Shown here: piece by piece, positions 47,704 through 49,377 of the stretch
Layout: the number at the start of each line of letters is the position of its first letter
How positions within the stretch are numbered: the first letter of the stretch is position 1
Assembly: GCA_016744475.1 (NCBI GenBank)
Contig: JADGEH010000012.1
Span: 1-64,000 of the forward strand
Direction: 5' to 3'
From: Thiotrichales bacterium
GTDB lineage: Bacteria; Pseudomonadota; Gammaproteobacteria; Beggiatoales; Beggiatoaceae
Length of the DNA stretch: 64,000 nt
Made by a program: the position numbers and the translations under genes
Notes under the pieces: generated by a model
The model's database searches: none
What the model saw: only the letters and a program-made list of their open reading frames with translations
What the model was told of the DNA's origin: nothing

Positions 47704-47754
47704 CAACGTCATCACTTTGCCAAACTTTAAGTGAATGACGATTGGGAGACGCTC

Positions 47755-49377
47755 ATGCCAAATATTGTTTCATCTTATGATTCTCATCTGATGCTGAGTG
47801 TCATTCGTGCATACCGCAGCAAAATCTTCGCATCATTATTCATAGGTGTGCTCTTAAGTCTTAATAGTCATGCTGCCAGCCCTTCTGCTTCAGCTCTCCC
47901 ATTACCACCACTGGTGCAGAGCAAGCTCCAACAAGCTCTGTACGCCTCTGGGTTTCGTCATCAATTGCCCAAACACACTAAAATTTATTTACCACAAGAA
48001 CAGCAAGAGCTTTATAGCTTCCAGGTGGGGGTCTATTTATTTGATATTAGTGCTGATGCCCGTTTTAGTATGCAAGGCAACGTGCTAGAACAAGCGGCTG
48101 AAATGCAAGATTTTGCAGAAGATATTGATGCGCCGACCCAACAACATGCCGATATTATCCGCGACACCCTGGAAGCTTTGGACGAAAGTCGGATGATTGT
48201 GTTTGCCCCTGAAGATGGTGAAGTGTTACACACTATTACGGTATTTACAGATACCAGTTGCCCTTATTCAGTGGAATTTCATCGTGAAATTGACTTGCTC
48301 ACAGATGCAGGTGTCAAGGTGCGTTATCTGGGGTATCCGCGCATGGGACAAGATTCTTTAGGGTATTTGCAAATGCGTCCCGTGTGGTGCAGTGATCAGC
48401 CCCAACAAGCTTTTAATCGCGCCATCAATCGCCAGCGCGTGCGCTTAAAACAATGTGATTCTGCACTCGATAGCCATATCCAATTGGGTAATAGCTTAGG
48501 ATTAATGGGAACACCTACTTTGTTATTTGAAGATGGACAAGTATCTACAGGCTATAGCAGTGCGATTGATATTCTTAGTTTTTTAGACAATGAAACAGAA
48601 CTGCCGCCCGCTTCATTTTCTTGGGTAGCTGATTTTGCCATACCTGATGAAGTGGCTCAGTCAGAAGAAGAAACATCAGTGAAAGCGCCAGTGGTCAGCG
48701 CCGATCAAGTCAGTCTTGCGGCGAAAAAGGCATTACGTGAACAGTTAGAAGAATTGTGGTTGAAGCCTTTGCCTTGGCAGCAGATGGAATTTACTGCTGA
48801 AGCTGATTTTTTCTCGACGACCTTGGGGGTTTATCGTTTTGATGTCAGCACAGATGGTAGTTTTGTGATGAAAATGAATTTGTTAGACAATCACCCTCAA
48901 TTCACTGAAGCACAACGCGCTGATATTCGCCAACAAGCCTTGCATCTGTTAGACGAACGTGGCGCGATTATTTTTGCACCAGAACAGGCGGCACAACATA
49001 CGGTGACCATTTTTACCGATGCGAATTGCCGTTTTTGTTTATCACAGTATCGAGAAACCGCTTATTTGAATCAGGCGGGTGTAAAAGTGCGTTATGTCGC
49101 GTATCCCAGTGCGGGCTTGGATTCTGAGGAATACCATTTATTAAAAGCGACTTGGTGTGCGCCTGATCGACAAAAGGCGTTATTGAGCATGAAGTTAAAA
49201 GGCCAGCGTTTAGCCAGTGAACAAGATTGTCACGATCCTATTGCTGCACATTACGAATTCGGGCTGAGTTTAGGCGTTCAAGGAACACCGAGTATCGCCT
49301 TAGACAATGGTCATTTATTGCCCGGTTATATGGGTAGCGATGAACTTTTAGGGCATTTACAAGCCGAGAGACCCTGA
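47755..49377 (+). CDS. Tandem DsbC-like thiol:disulfide interchange protein
   Basis: The ATG at 47755 follows GGGAG. The 541-aa exported protein has a hydrophobic export signal (about 22-41, ending NSHAA) and two successive DsbC/G-like units. Unit 1 (about 50-275): N-terminal dimerisation-like part, then FTDTSCPYSVEFHRE (CPYS at 169-172) and cis-Pro loop MGTPTLLF. Unit 2 (about 315-540): the same order, with FTDANCRFCLSQYRE (CRFC at 425-428) and QGTPSIAL. DsbC normally works as a homodimer of such units; here two are fused. The second Cys of unit 1 is Ser, so only unit 2 has a full CXXC. No Dsb partner gene is nearby. Confidence 0.87.
   Translation: MPNIVSSYDSHLMLSVIRAYRSKIFASLFIGVLLSLNSHAASPSASALPLPPLVQSKLQQALYASGFRHQLPKHTKIYLPQEQQELYSFQVGVYLFDISADARFSMQGNVLEQAAEMQDFAEDIDAPTQQHADIIRDTLEALDESRMIVFAPEDGEVLHTITVFTDTSCPYSVEFHREIDLLTDAGVKVRYLGYPRMGQDSLGYLQMRPVWCSDQPQQAFNRAINRQRVRLKQCDSALDSHIQLGNSLGLMGTPTLLFEDGQVSTGYSSAIDILSFLDNETELPPASFSWVADFAIPDEVAQSEEETSVKAPVVSADQVSLAAKKALREQLEELWLKPLPWQQMEFTAEADFFSTTLGVYRFDVSTDGSFVMKMNLLDNHPQFTEAQRADIRQQALHLLDERGAIIFAPEQAAQHTVTIFTDANCRFCLSQYRETAYLNQAGVKVRYVAYPSAGLDSEEYHLLKATWCAPDRQKALLSMKLKGQRLASEQDCHDPIAAHYEFGLSLGVQGTPSIALDNGHLLPGYMGSDELLGHLQAERP

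Follow-up and report, generated by a model that had tools for sequence, protein, structure and literature searches.

Gene and protein

A gene for a tethered two-unit DsbC-like protein was located on the forward strand of the window, the 64,000-nucleotide stretch of contig JADGEH010000012.1 analyzed here (Table 1). The open reading frame was confirmed to start with an ATG at 47755 and to close with a TGA stop ending at 49377, yielding a product of 540 amino acids. Hydrophobic leaders comparable to the N-terminus of this protein are likewise found in its homologues from four other genomes (G001, G016, G010 and G007, described below), and the protein is probably periplasmic. The two units share 33% sequence identity, and both contain a structural second cysteine pair and a GTP motif with the cis-proline. 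With respect to the active site they differ: CXXC is absent from unit 1, which carries CPYS, and present in unit 2, which carries CRFC.

Table 1. Features of the gene and its product, given as positions in the window.
Feature	Position	Strand	Basis
Tethered two-unit DsbC-like protein gene (540 aa)	47755..49377	+	ORF, profile matches, homologues
Possible Shine-Dalgarno sequence GGGAGA, 5 bases 5' of ATG	47744..47749	+	Read from sequence
Probable Sec signal peptide, residues 1-41 (ending ...IFASLFIGVLLSLNSHAA, followed by S)	47755..47877	+	Read by eye
Unit 1 (residues 50-283): DsbC-like N-domain, helical linker, thioredoxin domain	47902..48603	+	AlphaFold2 + VIA-align
CPYS active site, unit 1 (residues 169-172; C169, S172)	48259..48270	+	Sequence; CP[YF]S in 5/5 relatives
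Span with structural Cys pair C212/C234, unit 1	48388..48456	+	Invariant, 35 DsbC-type rows aligned to unit 1
Thr253-cisPro254, unit 1	48511..48516	+	Invariant GTP
Low-confidence inter-unit linker, residues 284-314	48604..48696	+	pLDDT <50 over residues 287-308
Unit 2 (residues 315-540): second DsbC-like unit	48697..49374	+	Structural match 1t3b, 1eej
CRFC active site, unit 2 (residues 425-428; C425, C428)	49027..49038	+	Sequence
Span with structural Cys pair C468/C492, unit 2	49156..49230	+	Sequence

The reading frame, profile matches and AlphaFold2 folds all agree with the original prediction of two DsbC-like units in one chain, one with CPYS and one with CRFC. Thioredoxin_2 matched two stretches of the protein (103.7 bits in sum). 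The NCBIfam DsbC profile NF008129, which has a cut-off of 215, gave 232.5 bits for the whole protein, again spread over two stretches. The cut-off is passed only as the sum of the two units, as these reach only 117 and 120 bits individually; the ordinary DsbC encoded in the same genome itself scores 176 bits. The Pfam profile DsbC_N (PF10411) matches this ordinary DsbC with 53.4 bits and found no match in either fused unit at E-values up to 5.

Unit 1 carries the CPY of the DsbG motif CPYC. E. coli DsbG has a V-shaped DsbC-like layout; it guards single cysteines (PMC4460558). A DsbG-like protective function, in which C169 would take over sulfenylated thiols and DsbD would resolve the resulting bond, nevertheless seems very unlikely to us. 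DsbG is a dithiol protein and a homodimer, and the DsbG equivalog profile NF008657 remained far below its cut-off of 124, with 35 bits for the whole protein and 20.5 bits for unit 1, DsbC being by far the better match.

Structural comparison of the AlphaFold2 models using VIA-align aligned unit 1 with E. coli DsbC (1eej, Z 22.6, residues 50-282, 198 aligned, rmsd 6.1) and matched the same residues to the solved DsbC C101S mutant (1g0t, Z 22.4), of which the CPYS site of unit 1 is a natural equivalent. For unit 2, matches to 1t3b (Z 20.4, residues 316-539) and 1eej (Z 20.2, residues 315-540) were obtained. In the models each unit thus shows a predicted DsbC fold that extends from the N-domain through the linker into the catalytic domain. 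Neither model fixes how the units are placed relative to each other (pTM 0.56 with 35 rows and 0.49 with 4 rows). An intrachain pseudo-dimer is plausible because the N-domain fold is predicted in both units, while the absent DsbC_N match indicates that their pairing surface may have changed, which would fit surfaces altered once both halves shared one chain.

Conservation and origin of the CPYS unit

A unit 1 with CP[YF]S was found in five genomes from four Beggiatoaceae genera, at identities down to 38%. Four of these genomes encode a two-unit fusion, and three of the four fusions have a dithiol unit 2. In addition to the genome of the window (G000, CPYS/CRFC), fusions are encoded by a Thiomargarita sp. 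of the same genus (G001, contig DYPD01000017; CPYS/CQFC, 62% overall identity), by Candidatus Venteria ishoeyi (G016, CPFS/CPFC) and by Thiotrichales bacterium BB2 (G010, L035:6601-8064). The latter keeps CPYS while the active site of its unit 2 reads NISS; both active-site cysteines and the cis-proline of that unit are lost and its structural cysteine pair is retained. The fifth genome (G007) encodes a standalone CPYS protein of 247 amino acids without unit 2. Its C-terminal end is a trace of the linker, which hints that unit 2 was lost, although no remnant of unit 2 could be found behind the gene and its position in the protein tree is not supported (90/44).

The original prediction had named CXXC in both units of the homologues as the pattern that would make the serine a private mutation. 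None of the four fusions shows this pattern; CP[YF]S is conserved in unit 1 of all four and in the standalone protein. A private mutation or sequencing error can be ruled out since the same layout and serine recur in independent assemblies of five genomes, and its conservation across four genera marks the serine of unit 1 as a genuine trait of these proteins and not a chance substitution.

Using a unit 1 profile, the five proteins scored 341-412 bits compared with 209 bits for the next DsbC in the order. CP[YF]S units were not found in the other 37 family genomes. Outside the family, no CPYS unit was recovered by profile in a 369-genome sample of the class, the best score being 187 bits. A scan of named genomes with the whole protein gave no match whereas the unit 1 profile scan recovered the named relatives. 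At the DNA level, the pattern FTDxxCP[FY]S gave none in this sample either and matched only the genome of the window, though other spellings would escape it. As far as sampled, the tethered CPYS protein thus appears confined to a single family of large sulfur bacteria.

All five copies of unit 1 fall into a single clade (100/99), and those of unit 2 cluster together (93/86). The nearest dithiol relative of unit 1 is a CPFC protein of genome G005 (L038:4589-5434; 92/76), which consists of a single unit and has both cysteines. CPYS therefore probably arose from CP[FY]C inside Beggiatoaceae.

Across the four fusions, 59 of 234 residues are invariant in unit 1 and 31 of 223 in unit 2. Pairwise identities follow the same trend, with 64% for unit 1 and 56% for unit 2 between the window protein and its Thiomargarita sp. 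homologue, and 42% and 35%, respectively, between the window protein and that of Candidatus Venteria ishoeyi. Judging from these comparisons, the monothiol unit 1 is the constant part of the protein. In the earlier description of unit 1 as broken the emphasis was misplaced, as unit 1 is the better conserved of the two. One could still argue for decay, with catalysis by unit 1 lost, the serine neutral and the protein at most a chaperone, since one of two cysteines is gone and unit 2 of Thiotrichales bacterium BB2 demonstrates that active-site loss is possible in this family. We consider this highly improbable. The first cysteine, the serine, the structural cysteine pair and the cis-proline of unit 1 are invariant in all five proteins, and the monothiol unit is the one evolving more slowly.

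Another explanation, central to the original prediction, is a separation of roles in which the single cysteine of unit 1 would serve for substrate binding, and the CXXC of unit 2 would be indispensable as the redox site resolving the mixed disulfide. CXXC and the DsbC fold are kept in unit 2 of three fusions (G000, G001 and G016), and linked DsbC heterodimers with two units per chain and one disabled site, engineered by Arredondo and colleagues in 2009 and cited in PMC4460558, reportedly remain active isomerases. These artificial constructs were reportedly joined by Gly-Ser linkers; the window protein is natural, diverged and conserved over genera. The comparison does not support unit 2 as a necessary partner, however. 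Because unit 2 of Thiotrichales bacterium BB2 has lost both active-site cysteines together with the cis-proline and the CPYS unit of G007 stands alone, the dithiol of unit 2 is, on the basis of these sequences, an optional helper and not the defining part of the protein. We thus regard this separation of roles as unlikely.

Proposed mechanism and relation to known systems

The explanation we favor, and to which we give about an even chance, is a tethered DsbC pseudo-dimer with one permanently monothiol arm, acting as an isomerase or holdase. The two N-domains would pair within the chain and form the DsbC cleft. Cys169 would attack substrate disulfides to give mixed disulfides, while serine at position 172 would leave the arm unable to form an active-site disulfide of its own and therefore without a net role as oxidant or reductant. 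Substrate would then be released only via its own second thiol, resulting in isomerization, via C425 in those proteins whose other arm has it, or via an n-DsbD domain of DsbD. In this way the monothiol arm could isomerize or hold clients without ever being oxidized to an active-site disulfide, alongside the ordinary DsbC (CFYC).

Proteins of the protein disulfide isomerase type with a CXXS site isomerize without oxidation or reduction and hold clients longer (PMC12384036), and dimerization is crucial for DsbC as it forms the substrate-binding site (PMC4460558). Taken together, the protein is therefore best read as a tethered pair with an arm limited to mixed disulfides. The standalone protein of G007 counts against this explanation as it would need another partner or have to homodimerize, as do the unfixed placement of the units in both models (pTM 0.56 and 0.49) and the unmatched DsbC_N profile.

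Compared with E. coli DsbC (1eej), each unit has the same N-domain, linker, thioredoxin domain, structural cysteine pair and Thr-cisPro. E. coli DsbC, however, pairs two identical chains that each carry CGYC, whereas the window protein combines unlike units in one chain, one of them monothiol. A conserved CXXS, as in unit 1, is found in the thioredoxin-fold secretory-pathway proteins ERp44 (CRFS), AGR2/AGR3 and TMX5 (PMC12384036). Conservation of CXXS across homologues, as would be expected for a CXXS holdase, was found here in five of five proteins (CP[YF]S). The CXXS isomerases belong to the eukaryotic ER and have another domain layout, while the CXXS of the window protein sits within a DsbC scaffold. 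The protein is a new form of DsbC and does not amount to a novel class of system; in the literature searched, no mention of Beggiatoa together with DsbC was found.

Whether DsbC requires CXXC in both arms, and whether isomerization depends on a resolving cysteine, are questions that have been debated on the basis of engineered mutants and fusions. Here a construct of this kind, with two tethered units of which one is monothiol, seems to have evolved and been maintained naturally. The natural variants in which the site of the other arm is lost, or the arm is absent, represent ready-made proteins for assigning arm roles. Further, the idea of a CXXS holdase or isomerase, known from the eukaryotic ER, would be extended to a bacterial periplasmic DsbC scaffold.

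Redox surroundings and genomic context

All five CPYS genomes also encode an ordinary DsbC and DsbD, the protein that keeps DsbC reduced. In the genome of the window, the ordinary DsbC (CFYC, L046) is accompanied by a third DsbC-like protein (CEYC, L045). This third paralogue, with CEYC or CEFC, is present in G000, G001 and G016 (L045:7391-8221, L047:4684-5556 and L036:4772-5665) and groups in a clade of its own (100/99). In G000 it shows only a sub-threshold DsbC_N match. DsbB (PF02600) was not found in the five CPYS genomes or in G003, and VKOR (PF07884) was not found in the 11 genomes tested.

The number of n-DsbD copies per DsbD varies from one to three among family members. DsbD of the genome of the window (L208:2386-5130, reverse strand, G000:C12) carries three in tandem, the first of which is diverged (GCLSIENCYP). 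Every one of the five CPYS genomes has a DsbD with three n-DsbD domains; of the 34 other family genomes in which DsbD was read, only G015 does (Fisher p about 1e-5, kinship ignored). In the CPYS genomes the first domain is diverged and keeps both cysteines. These first domains make up a clade (99) whose relatives (98) are the first domains in G006, G015 and G019. These observations bring in the possibility of a dedicated holdase or thiol trap, in which the extra diverged N-terminal n-DsbD domain would reduce the mixed disulfide and free the client. We consider this unlikely given that the related first domains of G006, G015 and G019 occur in genomes without CPYS, and that shared ancestry can explain the co-occurrence. 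In an rpoB tree the five CPYS genomes lie inside a seven-member clade (100) together with G005 and G014, both of which lack CPYS as well as the triple n-DsbD; G014 has one n-DsbD, and in G005, a genome 87% complete, no DsbD_N was found. A clade of the five genomes alone is not rejected (p-AU 0.35). With only one to two independent contrasts on this tree, functional coupling between CPYS and the triple n-DsbD is inseparable from shared ancestry and serves as a lead only. The broader proposal of a bacterial isomerase line built on a monothiol CXXS site, with the diverged duplicate n-DsbD as dedicated release partner and without oxidation to an active-site disulfide, in organisms without detected DsbB or VKOR, would likewise have a low probability.

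In G001 and G016 the fusion gene lies directly behind the ordinary dsbC, which in turn follows rimM-trmD-rplS. A shared operon was considered as a clue to a partner and discarded, as the neighbors differ in G000, G010 and G007 and no constant neighbor was found.

The rpoB reading frames of several family genomes (L306, L305, L302 and other loci) are 1490-2115 amino acids long and carry large in-frame inserts. On visual inspection, the two longest resemble helical Leu-rich repeats and not inteins.
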